From Humisphaera borealis (GTDB lineage: Bacteria; Planctomycetota; Phycisphaerae; Tepidisphaerales; Tepidisphaeraceae): DNA of 64,000 nt. A program made the translations under genes and the position numbers. Positions 1 through 57,072 of the stretch are shown one piece after another (positions within the stretch are counted from its first letter, which is position 1; every line of letters starts with the position of its first letter). Location of the stretch: NCBI RefSeq assembly GCF_015169395.1, contig NZ_CP063458.1, forward strand, positions 1,860,001 to 1,924,000. The letters are read 5' to 3'. Below the pieces are notes generated by a model. The model saw nothing but the letters and a program-made list of their open reading frames with translations, was not told the origin of the DNA and made no database searches.

Positions 1-726
1 GAGATCAAGCTCACCAACGTCCTGTATCACGGCATCGCCGTGAAGGCTGGCAACGAAACGTTCGCCGGCAACCGCTACCATCTCCAGAACGTCGGCGGAG
101 CACCGGTTTACATGGACGGCAAGGGGTACGACCTGGGCACCTGGTTCAACTCGTACGAAGCGACCGGCCAGGCCGTCAAAGCCAATTACGTCGATCCCGA
201 GCGAGATGCCAAGTCGTACAGCGCCACGCTCGGCGGTGCTGGCACCAACGAAGACTTCCTGGCCAAGGCCCGGGCCAATCGCAAGGACAATTTCAACCCG
301 GCGTACACCGCCTCTCTGGCAAACAGCTACATCCGCGCCGGCTTCGTGGACCGCGGCGATTCGTCGCCGGCCATCCCCACCGACTACGTTCCGCCGGTCA
401 GCGAGGTTCCGCCGACGATCGATACGCCGGTCGAAACACCGACGCCCACACCGACCCCGGTCGAGCCGACGCTGCCGCCACCTCCCCCGCCGCCGGCCTC
501 CAATCCGACGACGGAAACACCGACGACCAGCCCCGGCTACCACACCGTCGTTGGTGCCGACGGCAAGATCAAGGTCATCTGGGACAACAACGCCCCCGTT
601 CCGACCGAGCCCACGCCAACGGAACCCGTCCCCGAGCCCGAGCAGAACGCACCGGACGTCGTTTACACTCAGCCGTCCACCCCCGGCACGATCGTTTATG
701 CCGGCGGCTATTGGTACATCTCGTAG
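1..726 (+). CDS. C-terminal part of a secreted-type proline-rich protein (5' end outside window)
   Basis: The reading frame is open from base 1, so the start lies upstream; 241 residues are visible. The first ~110 residues are polar and rich in Asn, Gly and Tyr, with phrases such as NRYHLQNVGGAPVY that resemble the last turns of a right-handed beta-helix (pectate-lyase-like fold). This is followed by a long Pro/Thr/Glu linker (roughly residues 125-215) broken by a short folded-looking patch (YHTVVGADGKIKVIWDNN), ending in YAGGYWYIS. Such linkers are typical of planctomycete surface or secreted proteins. A hairpin follows at 779-810. The function is unknown; the beta-helix reading is an inference from composition and cannot be confirmed without the N-terminal part. 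Confidence 0.6.
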   Translation, partial: EIKLTNVLYHGIAVKAGNETFAGNRYHLQNVGGAPVYMDGKGYDLGTWFNSYEATGQAVKANYVDPERDAKSYSATLGGAGTNEDFLAKARANRKDNFNPAYTASLANSYIRAGFVDRGDSSPAIPTDYVPPVSEVPPTIDTPVETPTPTPTPVEPTLPPPPPPPASNPTTETPTTSPGYHTVVGADGKIKVIWDNNAPVPTEPTPTEPVPEPEQNAPDVVYTQPSTPGTIVYAGGYWYIS

Positions 727-778
727 CCAGAGGCTTGCATCCTGTAACCAGAGGCTCCGACCGAGTGGCAGATTCAAC

Positions 779-810
779 GGCGGGCATGACGATTCATCGT
801 CAGGCCCGCC
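779..810 (+). terminator. Hairpin, likely terminator of the first gene
   Basis: The sequence GGCGGGC-a-TGACGA, loop ttca, then TCGTCA-GGCCCGCC forms a strong stem with a single bulge about 50 nt after the stop codon at 726. It is followed by ttcgttcgttcg, which is only moderately T-rich. It lies between two genes read in the same direction, so a transcription stop is plausible. Confidence 0.55.
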
Positions 811-882
811 TTCGTTCGTTCGAAAGCCGTTCGACCCCTTGGGCAACTTCACATCCGACGTCCAAGCTGCGATAGTCGGGGT

Positions 883-1677
883 ATGCCGACCATTGCCTGC
901 ATTCAGTTCGACATGGCCTGGGAAAACAAGCCAGCCAACTATCAAACCGTCGCCGAGATGGTGCGTTCGGCGAACCTTGCGCCTGGATCGCTCCTGGTGG
1001 TACCGGAGATGTTCGCGACCGGCTTCAGCATGAACGCCACGGGTATCGTCGAACCCGTGCGCGGCCCGACCCACGACTTTCTTGCCTCGCTCGCGCGGCA
1101 ACACCAGCTCTTCGTTCTCGGCGGCGTGGTGCAACCAGGTCCGACCGGAACCTGGCCGGCGCTTAACGGACGTCCGCGGAACGAGGCAATCGCGATCAGC
1201 CCAGACGGGCAGTTGCTCGCCCGTTATGCAAAGATGCACCCCTTCACGCTGGGTGGTGAGAAGGACCATTACGCCGCCGGCGACGAGATTGTGCAATTCG
1301 AGTGGCAAGGCCTGAAGGTGACGCCGTTCATCTGTTACGACCTGCGTTTTCCCGAGCTGTTCCGCCGCGCTGCAAAGCTGGGGACCGATTTGTTCGTGGT
1401 GATCGCGTCGTGGCCGGCACCGCGAACCCATCACTGGACGACCCTGTTGCAGGCCCGTGCCATCGAGAACCAGGCGTTTGTGATCGGCAATAACCGCTGC
1501 GGCTCCGATCCTAAACTGACCTATGACGGCCGGAGCCTCGTCATCGATTACGCCGGCACAATTCTCGCCGATGGCGGCACAACCCCGTCAGTCGTCACCG
1601 CGGCGATCAACCCGGAAGCCATGCGAAGCTGGCGGACTAAGATGCCCTTCCTGGCCGATATGCGTGACGACCTCTGA
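883..1677 (+). CDS. Nitrilase-superfamily amidohydrolase, omega-amidase (YafV/Nit2) type
   Basis: A 264-residue carbon-nitrogen hydrolase. The Glu-Lys-Cys triad of the superfamily is visible: E42 in VVPEMFATGF, K117 in YAKMHPF, and C151 in FICYDLRFPELFR. The PEMFATGFSM segment and the short length are close to E. coli YafV and mammalian Nit2, which hydrolyse 2-oxoglutaramate or 2-oxosuccinamate to the 2-oxoacid and ammonia. No signal peptide is seen, so it is expected in the cytoplasm. It stands alone between a terminator-like hairpin and the large cytochrome gene. The superfamily call is firm; the exact substrate is inferred from the motif around E42 and could be another short omega-amide. 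Confidence 0.88.
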   Translation: MPTIACIQFDMAWENKPANYQTVAEMVRSANLAPGSLLVVPEMFATGFSMNATGIVEPVRGPTHDFLASLARQHQLFVLGGVVQPGPTGTWPALNGRPRNEAIAISPDGQLLARYAKMHPFTLGGEKDHYAAGDEIVQFEWQGLKVTPFICYDLRFPELFRRAAKLGTDLFVVIASWPAPRTHHWTTLLQARAIENQAFVIGNNRCGSDPKLTYDGRSLVIDYAGTILADGGTTPSVVTAAINPEAMRSWRTKMPFLADMRDDL

Positions 1678-1747
1678 CGACCCCGGCGCGGGAAGTTCGT
1701 CGTCGTTGCATTCAAACGTCCGCCTTCTCCAACGGTAACGATTTGTA

Positions 1748-4700
1748 ATGACTGCGACCTCCGCCCGCTTTCTCGCCCTGCTCATCCTTGCAACGGCCTC
1801 GACGGCCGCCGGTGCCGACCAGCCCGTGGACTTTGTCCGCGACATCAAGCCGATTTTCGAAGTACGCTGTTACGACTGCCATGGCGCCGCCAAGCAGAAG
1901 GGCGGCATCCGGCTCGACGCCCCGGTCTCTCTCAAAGGCGGAGACTCCGGCTCTCCCCTTTTCACCCCCGGCGACCCGGCCAAAAGTCATCTCCTCAAGC
2001 TCGTCCGCTCCGACGATCCCGACGAAGTCATGCCACCCAAAGGCGATCGGCTGTCGGCCCCGCAGATCGACCTGCTGACGCGATGGATTCAGCAGGGTGG
2101 AAACTGGCCTCAAACCGTCGTCACGGCCAAACCGAAGCTGAAGCACTGGTCATTCAATGCGCCCGTTCGGCCCCCGGTGCCGCAGGCGGCGATCGGGCCT
2201 GCGCGCAATCCGATCGATCAGTTCATCCTCGCTCGCCTGGAAAAAGAAGGGCTCAAGCCGTCACCCGAGGCGGACAAGCACGCGTTGATTCGCCGGGTCA
2301 CGTTCGCGTTGATCGGCCTGCCCCCTACACCCGCCGAGGTTGACGCTTTCATCGCCGACAAATCGCCCGATGCCTATGAGAAGGTCGTGGACCGGCTTCT
2401 CGCCGCACCGCAATTCGGCGAACGCTGGGCCCGCACCTGGCTCGACCTCGCCCGCTATGCCGACAGCAAGGGCTACGGCTCCGACCCGCTGCGGTTCACA
2501 ATCCATCCCTACCGCGACTGGGTCATCAGCGCGTTCAACCAGAATAAGCCTTACGACACATTCACCGTCGAACAGCTCGCCGGCGATCTGCTCCCGAACC
2601 CGACCATCGATCAGCTCGTCGCGACGGCGTTTCATCGCAACACGATGACCAACACCGAAGGCGGCACCGACGACGAAGAGTTCCGCGTCGCCGCCATCAA
2701 GGACCGCACCGACGTCACCTTCCAGGTCTGGATGGGGCTGACGATGGGCTGCGCCCAGTGCCATACGCACAAGTTCGACCCGATCACCAATCGCGAGTAC
2801 TACTCGGCGATGGCGTTCTTCAACCAGTCGGAAGACGCGGACCGGGCCGATGATTCGCCGACCATCCCCGTCCCCTCCGCCGACGACCTGGATCGCCAGA
2901 AGTCGCTCGAAGACCAGATCGCCAAACTGGAGGCCGGCCTCAAGGACTCCGCCGAAGTCGCCGCCGCCCAGGCGAAATGGGAGAAGGCGCAGTCTGACCC
3001 CGAGTCCGGCTGGACGACGCTCAAGATCGCTTCGGCCAAAAGCGCCGGCGGCGCGACGCTGACATCGCAACCGGACGGTTCGATCCTCGCCAGCGGCACA
3101 TTGCCCAAGACCGACACCTACACGGTCGTTGCCGAAGGCATGACCAAGGGCATCACGGCATTCCGCATTGAGGCGCTGACAGACGATTCTCTGCCGTCCA
3201 AGGGCCCCGGGCGGGCCGGCAACGGCTCGTTCATCCTCAATGAACTCAAAATCGCCGCTTCGCCAGTCGCCGAGGACGCCGCCGTCAAAATCACCGGCCG
3301 CTACGTTCGCATCGAGCTTTCCAAGAAGCCGCACCTGGCTTTGGCCGAGGTGCAGGTACTCTCCGGCACCGAGAATATCGCGCGAAAAGGGAAGGCAAAG
3401 CAGTCCACCACCGGTTACGGCGGCAAGGCAGAGTTGGCGATCGACGGCAATACCGACGGAGACTTCTACGGCGGAAAGAGCGTCAGCCATACCGGGGAAG
3501 GCGACAACAATCCCTGGTGGGAAGTCGACCTCGGCTCCGAACAGCCCATCGACCGCGTCGTGATCTGGAATCGCACCGACGGCAACGTCGTCCGGCGATT
3601 GGCGGACTTCAAGCTGTCGGTGCTGAACGCCGACCGCGTCATGACCTGGGGCGAAACGATCTCCAAGGCCCCGAGCCCGTCCGCCAGCTACGGCCCCGGC
3701 AAGCAGCAGGACGTCGCACTGGCCAACGCCTCGGCAACGTACGAGCAGCCCACCGAATCCGGCTGGACCGCCGCCAAGGCGATCGACGGCAACCCGGCGG
3801 CGAATTCCGGCTGGGCGATCGGCGGCCAGACCGGCCGGCGCCAGGTGGCGGTGTTTGAAGCACCGTCGGTTCCGCATTTCGCCGGCGGAACCCGGCTCAC
3901 CTTCTCACTTGTTCAGAACTTCGACACCGGCGCGCTCGGCCGCTTCCGTCTGTCGGCGACCACCCAGCCGCGGCCGGTGCGAGTCCTGCCGAACGACGTG
4001 TCGGCGGTATTGGCGATCGCCCCCGCCAAGCGATCGCCGGAGCAAAGCCAACGCCTTCGCGATCATTACCTCGCGATCAATGCAGGCACGCTAAAGGAAC
4101 ACGCGAAGATCGCCGACCTTCGAAAGCAGCTGGCCGCGTTGAAGCCGTCGCGCGTCGCGATCATGCGCGACCTTCCGGCGGATAAGCAGCGGCAGTCGAC
4201 GATCCTCATCAAGGGCAACTTCCTTCAGAAGGGCGAGCCGGTTTCCCCCGGCGTGCTGGGCGCGTTTCACTCATTGCCCGCCAACGCACCGGCCAATCGG
4301 CTGGGCTTGGCGAAGTGGATCGTTTCCAGGGACAACCCCCTGACCGCCCGCGTGCAGGTCAATCGCATTTGGGCTTCGTTCTTCGGAACAGGCCTGGTCG
4401 AGACACAGGAAGACTTCGGCGAGATGGGCACACCGCCCAGCCACCCGGAGTTGCTCGACTGGCTCGCCGTCGAGTTCATGGAGCCGACGGTCGGCGGATC
4501 GGGCACGCCTTGGGATATGAAGCGGCTGATGCGGCTGATCGTGACCAGCCAAACCTACCGTCAGAGCGCCAAGGTTGATCCCGAACTGCTCGAGAAGGAT
4601 CCGGGTAACCGGCTTCTCGCCCGTATGCCGCGTCAACGGCTCGAAGCCGAGATGGTTCGCGACCAGGCGCTGGCCGTCAGCGGCTTGCTGAGCACGAAGA

Positions 4701-5254
4701 TGTTCGGCCCCAGCGTCTACCCGCCGCAACCGGAGGGCATGTGGCAGGCGGCGTTCAACGGCGAACGAACCTACCCGACCAGCAAGGGTGAAGACCGCTA
4801 TCGTCGGGGCGTCTACGTCTTCTGGCGGCGAACGGTCCCTTATCCGAGCATGCAGACCTTCGACGCCCCCAGCCGAGAGGTCTGCACCATCCGCCGAATC
4901 CACACGAGTACGCCGTTGCAGGCGTTCGTGACGATGAACGATCCGGTCTACGTCGAATGCAGCCAGGCGCTTGGCCGACGGCTGATCAAAGACGGTGGTG
5001 AGACGCCGGAGGCCCGCATTCGTTTCGGCCTGGAGCTGATCCTGCAGCGACCCGCATCCGCCGAGCAGATCAAGCCGCTGGCAAAGCTTTACCAGTCGGA
5101 GCTGTCGCACTTCCTTCAGGACGCCGACGACGCGAAAAAGCTCTCGAGTGATCCCATCGGACCCTTGCCGGCAGGAATGACACCGGCCGAAGCCGCGGCA
5201 TGGACGGTCATCGCGAATGTGATGTTGAATTTGGATGGCGCAATGACGCGTTAA
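1748..5254 (+). CDS. Planctomycete cytochrome protein: PSCyt1-DUF1549-discoidin-like-DUF1553
   Basis: This 1168-residue protein begins with a signal peptide (about residues 1-23, cleavage near AAGADQ). A haem-c type site CYDCH at C41-C44-H45 belongs to a PSCyt1 domain. A DUF1549 (PSCyt2) domain covers about residues 150-355 and holds a second CAQCH site at C335-C338-H339. Residues ~540-630 resemble an F5/8-type (discoidin) carbohydrate-binding domain (AIDGN...WWEVDLGS). DUF1553 (PSD1) covers about 850-1120, and the protein ends in the family's usual [12 protein letters not shown]. Members are abundant in planctomycetes, where they are thought to be exported haem proteins linked to polysaccharide breakdown, but their chemistry is not established. 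The DUF1501 gene 156 bp downstream is the customary partner. Confidence 0.93.
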
Positions 5255-5265
5255 CGAACGGCCCC

Positions 5266-5381
5266 GTCAGTGACACGGGCTTCCAGCCCGCGCTGGCGAT
5301 GCAGTAGTAGAAGAGACTTGGATACGCGAATCATCTTTACGCCAACGTCGCACGCACGGGCGGGAAGCCCGTGTCACTGAC
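5266..5381. repeat. Paired-hairpin (BIME-like) element, family A
   Basis: Two 25-nt arms (5266-5290 and 5357-5381) are inverted copies matching at 24 of 25 positions, around a 66-nt loop. Each arm contains its own hairpin, for example CGGGCTTCCAGCCCG. The element fills most of the gap between the cytochrome gene and the DUF1501 gene. The same arm sequence recurs at 10888-11040. Confidence 0.85.
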
Positions 5382-5410
5382 AGAGCGGCTGGCATAATCG
5401 CAGTGCAAGC

Positions 5411-6895
5411 ATGAACAGCAACCTTCAACACGCCCGCCACCTCACCCGCAGGCACTTCCTCACGAAGTGCAACTCCGGCCTCGGCGCGCTCGCGCTGGCT
5501 TCCCTTCTAGGCAAGACGTCGCCCGCGCAGGCGGCGAGTGCCAAGGTTCTGCCCTACGGCCCGGCCGACATGAGCCGTCCGATGGCGGTGCGGCCGACGA
5601 TGTTCGCGCCCAAGGCCAAGCGCGTCATCTACTTGCACATGTCCGGCTCGCCGCCGCAGCATGACCTGTTTGACTACAAGCCCCTGCTGACAAAGCTAGA
5701 CCGCCAACCCTGCCCCGACGAGTACATCAAGGGCGAGCGCTTCGCATTCATCAAAGGCCATCCCAAGTGCTTGGCGAGCCCTTACAAGTTCGACCGCGTC
5801 GGCGACCGTGGCACGTTTATCAGCGAACTACTTCCCGGTATTCGCACCATCGCCGACGACATGACCATCGTCCGCTCGATGTGGACCGACCAGTTCAACC
5901 ATGCCCCGGCCGAGATGATGCTGTACACCGGCAACATGCGGGCCGGCCATGCCTCGATGGGCTCGTGGGTAACGTGGGGCCTGGGCAGCGAGAACCAGGA
6001 TCTGCCCGGCTTCGTCGTGCTCGTCTCCGGCGGAACCGATCCGACGGCGGGCAAGAGCGTCTGGAGCAGCGGCTTCCTGCCCAGCGTGTTCCAGGGCACG
6101 CAGTGCCGCAGCAAAGGCGAACCGATCTTGTACGCCAATAACCCCGCCGGCATGGACCGCGACGTCCGCCGGCGATCGCTCGACGCACTGAAGGAACTGA
6201 ACGAGATCGAGGCCAAGACCTTCAACGACCCCGAAACCGTCACACGCATCAACCAGTTTGAACTGGCGTATCGCATGCAGATGGCTGTCCCGGAAGTGAC
6301 CGACGTCTCAAAAGAGCCACAGCACGTACTCGACGCCTATGGCGCCAAACCCGGCGACGGCAGCTTCGCCAGCAACTGCCTGCTGGCTCGCAAGCTCGTC
6401 GAGAATGGCGTTCGCTACGTTCAGCTCTTTGACTGGGGCTGGGACATGCACGGCACCCAGAACGGCGACGACCTCACGACAGCTCTGCCGAAAAAGTGCA
6501 AGCAGGTCGATCAGGCGGCATCAGCGCTGATCAAGGATCTCAAGCAGCGCGGCCTGCTTGACGAAACACTCGTCGTCTGGGGCGGTGAGTTCGGTCGAAC
6601 TCCCATGAACGAAGAGCGCGGCGGCAGCAAACTCCTCGGCCGCGACCACCACCCCCATGCGTTCACCATCTGGATGGCCGGCGGCGGTATCAAGCGCGGT
6701 TTCGACTACGGCGCGACCGACGACCTCGGCTACTTCGTCAACGAAGACAAGATGACCGTTCGAGACCTGCAGGCGACAATCCTGCACGCGCTGGGACTGG
6801 ACCCACACAAGCTGCACTATCCGCACCAGGGCTTAAACGAGCGTCTCATCGGACCAACTAACGAGCCCAAGGTACACACGAAGTTGTTCGCCTAG
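5411..6895 (+). CDS. DUF1501 family protein, Tat-exported, sulfatase-like fold
   Basis: A 494-residue protein with a twin-arginine signal (TRRHFLTKCNSGLGALALAS, from about residue 12) and the DUF1501 layout: YLHMSGSPPQHDLFDYKP near the N-terminus, MWTDQFNHAPAEM in the middle, and WGGEFGRTP and GRDHHPHAF towards the end. DUF1501 proteins are related to the alkaline phosphatase/sulfatase superfamily, and the His/Asp-rich motifs may bind metal. In planctomycetes the gene almost always follows a PSCyt1/DUF1549/DUF1553 gene, as here, so the two products probably act together outside the cytoplasmic membrane. The catalytic activity of the family is not known. Confidence 0.92.
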   Translation: MNSNLQHARHLTRRHFLTKCNSGLGALALASLLGKTSPAQAASAKVLPYGPADMSRPMAVRPTMFAPKAKRVIYLHMSGSPPQHDLFDYKPLLTKLDRQPCPDEYIKGERFAFIKGHPKCLASPYKFDRVGDRGTFISELLPGIRTIADDMTIVRSMWTDQFNHAPAEMMLYTGNMRAGHASMGSWVTWGLGSENQDLPGFVVLVSGGTDPTAGKSVWSSGFLPSVFQGTQCRSKGEPILYANNPAGMDRDVRRRSLDALKELNEIEAKTFNDPETVTRINQFELAYRMQMAVPEVTDVSKEPQHVLDAYGAKPGDGSFASNCLLARKLVENGVRYVQLFDWGWDMHGTQNGDDLTTALPKKCKQVDQAASALIKDLKQRGLLDETLVVWGGEFGRTPMNEERGGSKLLGRDHHPHAFTIWMAGGGIKRGFDYGATDDLGYFVNEDKMTVRDLQATILHALGLDPHKLHYPHQGLNERLIGPTNEPKVHTKLFA

Positions 6896-55255: not shown

Positions 55256-55411
55256 GTAGGGTGGGGTTCACCCCACCGCATCGCGTGCGATGACCGGTTG
55301 TTTACCCCGACCGGATGTCCTCGCCGAGACGAAATGTCGACTGTTTCGCCGCTCCAGCGATCCGACACAACTTGTCCCCGCCGCTTCTCGGTGGGGTGAA
55401 CCCCACCGTAC
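55256..55411. repeat. REP/BIME-like element filling the dapA-aroDE gap
   Basis: Arms 55256-55278 and 55389-55411 (23 nt) match at 22 of 23 positions in inverted orientation. The left arm starts with GTAG, then a hairpin GGTGGGG-tt(c)a-CCCCACC. The element begins 8 bases after the dapA stop and ends 8 bases before the chosen aroDE start. Confidence 0.88.
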
Positions 55412-55419
55412 AGAATGCT

Positions 55420-57072
55420 GTGACTTACCTCTGCGTCGCCATCTTCGTCCAGTCTGAGCAACAGGCCCAGCGCGACATCGCGCTGGCCGCCGAGGCTGGC
55501 GCGGACATGGTCGAGCTGCGGATTGACGATCACGCGGATCTGGGCGCGATTGGCCTGGGGCAACTCTCGCTGCTTCTGCAAAGCAGTTCGTTGCCGGCGA
55601 TCGTGACGTGCCGGCCGATCTGGGAGGGCGGGCGCTCCAGGCTGTCGGATACGGATCGACTCGCCCTTCTCTCGGCCGCCGACGAAGCGGACGCGGCTTA
55701 CCTTGACGTCGAACTAGAGACAACCAGGCACGCCGAGGCCAAAGACTTCCTCGACGATAAGCTGCCCCGCCGCCGCGAAGAGCGAGCCGGGCTCATTTTC
55801 AGCTCCCATGATTTCACCGGCCGCCCGGCGAAGCTGACGGCCATTTTCGACGAACTGGTGCGCTCCCCCGCCGACGTCGCCAAGATCGTCTGGACAGCCC
55901 GCACCGTTCGCGACAACCTCGAGGCGTTCGAACTGCTGCGCCATCGCGCCAAGCCGACGATCGCGCTGTGCATGGGCGAGGCCGGGCTGATCTCGCGCGT
56001 GCTGGCCAAAAAGTTCGGCGCGTTCCTGACCTTCGCCTCACTCGAAACCGGCGGCGGAACCGCACCCGGGCAGGTGTCGGTCCGAGACATGAAGCGGCTC
56101 TACCGCTGGGACGCGATCGCGCCCGCCACGAAGGTTTATGGCGTCGTCGGATCGCCGGTGGCGCACTCGATGTCCCCCGCGATCCACAACGCCGCGTTCG
56201 ACACGACCGGCTTCGACGGCGTTTACGTGCCGCTGCTGGTCGAGCCGAGTTACGAGTCGTTCAAGGCGTTTATGGAAACGTTCCTGGCCGCCGAGGGACT
56301 GCACCTGTCGGGCCTGTCGGTCACGATTCCGCACAAGGAAAATGCGCTGCGCTACCTGAAGGAGAAGGGCGCCGAGATCGACCCCCTCGCCGAGCGGATC
56401 GGTGCGCTCAATACGATTGCCATCCGTAGGGTCCGCCTTGGCGGACGCGGTGGCAATGGCGTCGAAGAAAGCAACGCCGAGCCGTCCAACGCCGTCGCGT
56501 CCGCCAAGGCGGACCCTACTTTGTACGGCACCAGCACCGACTACGCCGCGATCCTGGACAGCATCACGACGAAACTGGGAATCAGCCGGGAACAGTTGAA
56601 GGACTACCGGGTCGCCGTGATTGGTGCCGGCGGAACGGGGCGAACCGCCGTCGCGGCGCTGGCGCATTACGGGGCGACGGTCGTCGTCTACAACCGTACG
56701 CGCGAAAAGGCCGACGCACTCGCCGCCGAGTTCAACGGCAAGACCGGCAAGGTGGTCGCCGCCGACATGGCCAAGCTCTGCGATTCCTGCTGCCAGATCT
56801 ATATCAACACGACCAGCATCGGTATGAGCCCGAATGTCGAGCAGAGCGCGTTCGGCGACCGACCGCCGGCGCTCAGCGCCGACAGCGTGGTCTTTGATGC
56901 TGTCTATAACCCGGTGCGGACGATGTTCATCAGGCAGGCCGAAGCCGCGGGTGCCCGAACCATCAATGGGGTGGAGATGTTCGTGAGGCAGGCTGCGGCG
57001 CAGTTTGAACTTTGGACCGGCACGCCCGCGCCCACCGACGTCATGCGCAACGTGGTCGAAAGCCGTCTGTAG
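55420..57072 (+). CDS. aroDE: Fused 3-dehydroquinate dehydratase/shikimate dehydrogenase
   Basis: A 550-residue bifunctional shikimate-pathway enzyme. Residues 1-~225 are a type I dehydroquinase: MVELRID, VTCRPIWEGG, catalytic His130 in FSSHDF and Schiff-base Lys155 in DVAKIVWTA. Residues ~238-550 are AroE: GVVGSPVAHSMSPAIHN, Lys306 in TIPHKENA, Asp374 in STDY, the NADP-site VIGAGGTGRTA and NRTREKAD. Residues 336-367 are an insertion between ALNTIAI and LYGTSTDY that comes from an in-frame paired-hairpin repeat. The start is placed at GTG 55420, because upstream residues are a translation of another repeat. All active-site residues remain, so the enzyme is probably working. Confidence 0.92.
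   Translation: MTYLCVAIFVQSEQQAQRDIALAAEAGADMVELRIDDHADLGAIGLGQLSLLLQSSSLPAIVTCRPIWEGGRSRLSDTDRLALLSAADEADAAYLDVELETTRHAEAKDFLDDKLPRRREERAGLIFSSHDFTGRPAKLTAIFDELVRSPADVAKIVWTARTVRDNLEAFELLRHRAKPTIALCMGEAGLISRVLAKKFGAFLTFASLETGGGTAPGQVSVRDMKRLYRWDAIAPATKVYGVVGSPVAHSMSPAIHNAAFDTTGFDGVYVPLLVEPSYESFKAFMETFLAAEGLHLSGLSVTIPHKENALRYLKEKGAEIDPLAERIGALNTIAIRRVRLGGRGGNGVEESNAEPSNAVASAKADPTLYGTSTDYAAILDSITTKLGISREQLKDYRVAVIGAGGTGRTAVAALAHYGATVVVYNRTREKADALAAEFNGKTGKVVAADMAKLCDSCCQIYINTTSIGMSPNVEQSAFGDRPPALSADSVVFDAVYNPVRTMFIRQAEAAGARTINGVEMFVRQAAAQFELWTGTPAPTDVMRNVVESRL
56426..56519. repeat. REP/BIME-like element inserted in frame within aroDE
   Basis: Arms 56426-56449 and 56496-56519 are perfect inverted copies over 24 nt. 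The arm begins GTAG, then GGTCCGCCTTGGCGGAC, a hairpin with an 8-bp stem. The inserted segment spans 32 codons (56425-56520) without stop codons. Confidence 0.92.

Follow-up and report, generated by a model that had tools for sequence, protein, structure and literature searches.

The only shikimate dehydrogenase gene of a Humisphaera-like soil planctomycete carries, at positions 56426-56519 of the window (the whole 64,000-nt stretch analysed, contig positions 1860001-1924000 of a single-contig genome of 7.19 Mb), two inverted copies of a dispersed 24-nt GTAG-tagged REP, GTAGGGTCCGCCTTGGCGGACGCG, around 46 nt. In our preferred explanation, which we consider probable, two such 24-mers inserted separately and in opposite orientations into the tip of a surface beta-hairpin, each as a unit of its own, and the pair would bracket about 46 nt of native tip with no spacer carried in. 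They would have been mobilised in trans by RAYT (REP-associated tyrosine transposase), several of which the genome encodes, and would have no function in the enzyme, being merely tolerated since they lie in a variable, exposed and disordered tip.

An inverted REP pair lies in frame in aroDE

The gene, aroDE, encodes a bifunctional type I 3-dehydroquinate dehydratase/shikimate dehydrogenase (Pfam DHquinase_I 9e-49, Shikimate_dh_N 3e-22, SDH_C 1e-15), with a match to the aroE profile TIGR00507 that exceeds the cut-off, and homology points to the GTG at 55420 as its probable start codon (Table 1). The repeat has 34-nt arms of 88% complementarity that are perfect over their outer 24 nt (chance expectation 0.00), as a preliminary description of this DNA had noted in calling it a GTAG-type paired hairpin, and the reading frame stays open across it, between NTIAI and LYGTSTDY, also as described. 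As RNA the repeat folds at -70 kcal/mol (z = -9.8). An Rfam search of the window gave no match.

Between the flanking Ile and Leu lie 32 codons, where the AroE of relatives has about 7-12 residues. All 32 had been taken as extra residues encoded by the element; on our best reading the REP sequence itself supplies only 16 of them, the 46-nt middle looks native, and sequence comparison suggests that at most about 20-25 residues are truly extra. The preliminary description had also pointed out that a second intact aroE would make this gene dispensable; the Shikimate_dh_N profile matches a single gene in the genome, aroDE itself, which is presumably needed and working. The AroE half retains both catalytic residues, Lys (PHK) and Asp (NTD), as well as the glycine motif for NADP, and H73, K74, D142 and G170-G173 are invariant columns in an alignment of 36 AroE sequences. 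Just upstream of aroDE, a different GTAG repeat pair (GTAGGGTGGGGTTCACCCCACCGC, window positions 55256-55279 and 55389-55411) separates it from a dihydrodipicolinate-synthase-like ORF.

Table 1. Features of aroDE and of the other genes carrying the 24-nt REP; positions are those of the window unless contig G000:C1 is named
Feature	Position	Strand	Remarks
aroDE, bifunctional type I 3-dehydroquinate dehydratase/shikimate dehydrogenase	55420..57072	+	Pfam profiles, TIGR00507
Beta-hairpin of AroE substrate-binding domain	56413..56532	+	AlphaFold2 model, invariant columns
Hairpin first strand	56413-56427	+	AlphaFold2 model
Left REP unit, 24 nt, GTAG at outer end	56426..56449	+	with one host base reads RRVRLGGR
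Hairpin loop, low-confidence, disordered	about 56428-56517	+	AlphaFold2 model
46-nt spacer, most likely native hairpin tip (GNGVEESNAEPSNA)	56450..56495	+	coding score in gene frame
Right REP unit, 24 nt, inverted	56496..56519	-	read in gene as ASAKADPT
Hairpin second strand	56518-56532	+	AlphaFold2 model
Catalytic Asp codon (NTD motif)	56539-56541	+	invariant columns
valS REP pair, editing-domain hairpin (at domain start)	G000:C1:1040910-1041004 (L005 1501-1595)	gene on minus strand	in frame
Single 24-mer, PSCyt1/PSCyt2/PSD1 (DUF1549/DUF1553) gene	G000:C1:3516490-3516510 (L135 3001-3021)		in frame
Single 24-mer, 1758-aa PD40 beta-propeller/squalene-cyclase-like protein	G000:C1:5121458-5121478 (L410, ORF 515-5788)		in frame

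The insert is predicted to be a disordered hairpin tip

An AlphaFold2 model of AroE built with 36 aligned sequences (mean pLDDT 90.9, pTM 0.87) matches the fold of solved shikimate dehydrogenases in the PDB. The insert appears in it as a low-confidence loop that connects the strands formed by model residues 100-104 and 135-139, with tip block means of 44-53 pLDDT, and the rest is confident save for a few other residues. Modelling, as had been proposed, hence gives a confident fold with a presumably disordered insert loop, around which the enzyme is otherwise predicted to have its normal fold. The claim that the insert is close to the substrate/cofactor site stands for the base of the hairpin, since D142, the catalytic Asp, lies three residues past it; the insert itself is the disordered tip, which would presumably point away from the active site. 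The view that the insertion is tolerated is supported.

We compared the loop with that of relatives (the ones that bear a name are Phycisphaerales/Tepidisphaeraceae MAGs), as had also been proposed. The REP was absent from AroE in about 100 of them (family members plus 80 further loci, 75 of these readable), the insert being absent from the same-genus relative too, and tips in most are of 7-12 residues. The only other long AroE tip, in G005 (L038/L205), is without this REP. In G004 (L196), L244 and G009 (L199) the tip is coded by short tandem-repeat-like DNA, the repeat types at the tips of relatives being CTGGCAACT, CTCGAAA and CAATCAAC, as if the AroE tip tolerated junk DNA.

The 24-mer belongs to a dispersed family that never shifts a frame

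Searching the genome for the 21-nt core with up to two mismatches yielded 293 half-copies (152 on the plus and 141 on the minus strand), with none for a control pattern. At up to one mismatch there were 266 copies. The same-genus genome, which is 65% complete, had 10, two further family members had 2 and 1, and the remaining 22 had 0. Among 192 copies with flanks, conservation was 97-100% at positions 1-21 and 76-93% at positions 22-24, position 13 of single copies being the lowest conserved position (91%), and beyond position 24 it was near background save for a weak preference for A and GG as far as position 28. These copies share a GTCCGCC/GGCGGAC stem and GTAG at positions 1-4 (97-100%, with a search pattern that itself contains GTAG and allows two mismatches). 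Inward-facing partners within 250 nt were found for 147 of the 192 halves (77%), and outward-facing ones for 2. The family hence has these traits of the GTAG-tagged REP super-family: a stem-loop of 20-40 nt ending in an unpaired GTAG, high dispersed copy number, mostly intergenic location and inverted dimers.

The unit of 24 nt corresponds to eight codons and so never shifts a frame, and a stop occurs in only one of its six readings (the TAG of GTAG), the stop-free ones being VGSALADA, RVRLGGR, RVRQGGPY, ASAKADPT and RPPRRTL. An insert in frame and without a stop is therefore less remarkable than it appears.

The sampled genic copies are few and all in frame

Sites were sampled as 73 exact cores at 1-4.15 Mb and 33 sites in the contiguous 4.42-5.62 Mb. 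Only 4 of the 106 (about 4%) lie in conserved genes, namely aroDE, valS, the PSD1/DUF1553 gene and the PD40 protein gene, and each of these four is in frame. The other 102 are outside clear coding sequence. Genic sites are far rarer than random landing would give (3 of 73, p < 1e-40, with coding density assumed to be 80-88%), and most copies landing in genes would have been lost, the survivors sitting in disordered tips or loops. Like aroDE, valS is the sole gene of its kind in the genome, here for valyl-tRNA synthetase (ValRS), and the PSD1/DUF1553 gene is, with its single 24-mer, about eight codons longer there than its homologues. Long REP-spanning ORFs in L100, L110, L109, L126 and L144 are probably spurious, given their weak coding scores.

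The spacer between paired units is probably native

Seventy unique REP pairs enclose spacers of 16-197 nt, of all three length classes modulo 3, with no similarity among those that are unlinked, no more complementarity outside the 24-mer than re-paired spacers show (p = 0.68) and no convincing period in pair spacing. For the spacers of aroDE and valS, the highest coding score among the six frames is that of the gene's own frame, at 0.55 and 0.35 bits/codon, values reached by 1.5% and 2.1%, respectively, of 330 pair-spacer frame readings that include both spacers (the coding model is simple and was trained on 20 long window ORFs, aroDE among them). Removing the 24-mers in silico leaves a plausible tip in each, ...SNAVLYGTSTDY (also given as ...NTIAIRGNGVEESNAEPSNAVLYGTSTDY) in aroDE and ...NVSAEYVVVATTRPE (also ...SANGDNASDANTNVSAEYVVVATTRPE) in valS, the latter like ...TPEYVTVATTRPE of the same-genus ValRS. 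These two coding cases suggest that the spacer is probably not part of the element but native DNA. If so, a REP pair may arise when two units insert on either side of resident DNA, a point of relevance to how REPs move.

We consider it rather unlikely that the whole 94-nt doublet was instead inserted as a unit (a REPIN), replacing or displacing the ancestral tip of 7-12 residues, with its spacer diverging later. Such an event would agree with the proposal that REPINs are the replicative unit in Pseudomonas fluorescens (PLoS Genet 2011, PMC3116915), and with the short tips of relatives, as a native tip would need about 16 residues. It would also agree with the relative G022, where pairs of another repeat family keep their spacing constant at about 112 nt, with strongly diverged spacers between near-identical arms, and where pair and spacer may move as one unit; this constant spacing weighs against two separate insertions. 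However, the pair lengths, 94 in aroDE and 95 in valS, cannot be divided by three, and insertion as a unit would thus require compensating changes; the spacers of the 70 pairs are unrelated and vary widely in length; those in aroDE and valS are coding-like in the gene frame; and genes also hold single 24-mers. The G022 pairs further show that arm identity, from which the aroDE insertion had been judged recent, gives no insertion date, since near-identical arms there flank strongly diverged spacers; in the present family, too, arms are nearly identical throughout.

Different repeats occupy one ValRS hairpin

Palindromic pairs occur at a single ValRS hairpin site in 5 of the 21 family members in which the hairpin could be read: this 24-nt REP in the present genome (G000), GTGGCACGGGTTTTCAACCCGTG in G002 (L174), GTGGCATGGGCGTCTCGCCCATG in G016 (L177) and G022 (L176), and a GGGTTCAGGGTTCAG palindrome in G005 (L173). 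Repeats of the form GTGGCAYGGG-N7-CCCRTG are dispersed in G002 (349 copies), G016 (584) and G022 (307), with 0 for controls. Outside the family, ValRS tips across the phylum are of 6-17 residues in the loci readable by regular expression (about two-thirds), and that of Thermus is of 4. Finding four further ValRS hits among 20 genomes has p = 8e-8 to 4e-5 for a hit probability of 0.002-0.01 per gene per genome, where the base rate is an estimate and inserts are counted as independent, although some may share ancestry. In AroE, taken as the comparison gene, no other family member had a REP at the site. We tentatively propose that in this lineage several REP families repeatedly use this one permissive ValRS hairpin, and that the 24-nt REP inserts pairwise, in inverted orientation, around some 16-100 nt of existing DNA rather than as a doublet with its spacer. 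The recurrent site offers a natural series for testing a two-insertion origin of REP pairs.

The use of one site by pairs of different repeats, together with the stable fold of the aroDE hairpin, could also be taken to mean that the inserts are functional, that is, selected, reusable and tuning the enzyme or its mRNA, for instance through a stable hairpin that would delay the ribosome ahead of the NADP domain. This we regard as improbable: the peptides made are unrelated, the repeat is absent from every AroE relative examined, the tip is disordered in the model and nearly all sampled sites are outside clear coding sequence. A chance palindrome, an assembly artefact or a misannotated frame, for which nothing was found in favour, can practically be dismissed, as the genome-wide family with zero control matches rules out the first, the genome is a single contig, and conserved AroE sequence lies on either side in the same frame.

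Comparison with known repeat systems

The preliminary description held that such insertions are rarely seen outside rickettsial-type cases. However, the in-frame intragenic repeat is already known as a kind and is not only rickettsial: GTAG REPs in frame inside genes of many bacteria, tRNA synthetases included, were listed in 2013, as singles and dimers coding 20-30 residues, GTAG REPs/BIMEs were reported from Planctomycetes and Verrucomicrobia, and inverted dimers with variable spacers, mostly of 20-100 bp, are already published (BMC Genomics, PMC3733652). The present repeat resembles these in its GTAG terminus, short stem-loop, mostly intergenic location, inverted dimers and some in-frame copies in genes, but differs in being almost confined to one genus-level lineage, in its 24-nt unit, in spacers unrelated in all pairs examined and in a ValRS hairpin used by different repeat families. 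New here are the four in-frame cases in one genome, the putative 24-nt bracketing and the ValRS site shared by several repeat families.

With the REPINs of P. fluorescens (PMC3116915) it shares two inverted REPs with a spacer, the possibility of one hairpin and, presumably, a link to RAYT. REPINs are doublets moving with a spacer that keeps its length and complementary bases, whereas the 70 pairs analysed here have neither a conserved spacer length nor pair-specific complementarity. Rickettsia palindromic elements (RPE), of about 150 bp, code for a conserved peptide and are frequent in ORFs (PMC10969869). Like them, the present repeat occurs in frame in genes whose proteins work; unlike them, it is a 24-nt unit whose reading frame differs from gene to gene and which is mostly intergenic. 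Small mobile repeats can hence lengthen essential enzymes outside rickettsiae, and their tolerance is suggested by the eight-codon unit, the stop in one of six readings and the landing in disordered hairpin tips.

RAYT-type genes

RAYT-type genes are present in the genome, with 12 matches to the Y1_Tnp profile, and mobilisation in trans by RAYT would fit both the literature and the presence of these genes. A cognate RAYT gene with its own REP on the flanks is a further trait of the GTAG-tagged super-family. Counting against the preferred explanation, none of the RAYT genes in the stretches examined is flanked by this 24-nt REP, and one has a different GTAG family at its flanks. That gene, a weak RAYT-like (Y1_Tnp) match at G000:C1:5924500-5924724 (L032), has three GTAGGGTGGGCGTAC-type repeats around it in a REPtron-like layout. 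Elsewhere, two very similar RAYT-type genes lie in tandem at G000:C1:4158951-4160170 (L164), and another copy resembling them is located at 3071480 (L165).
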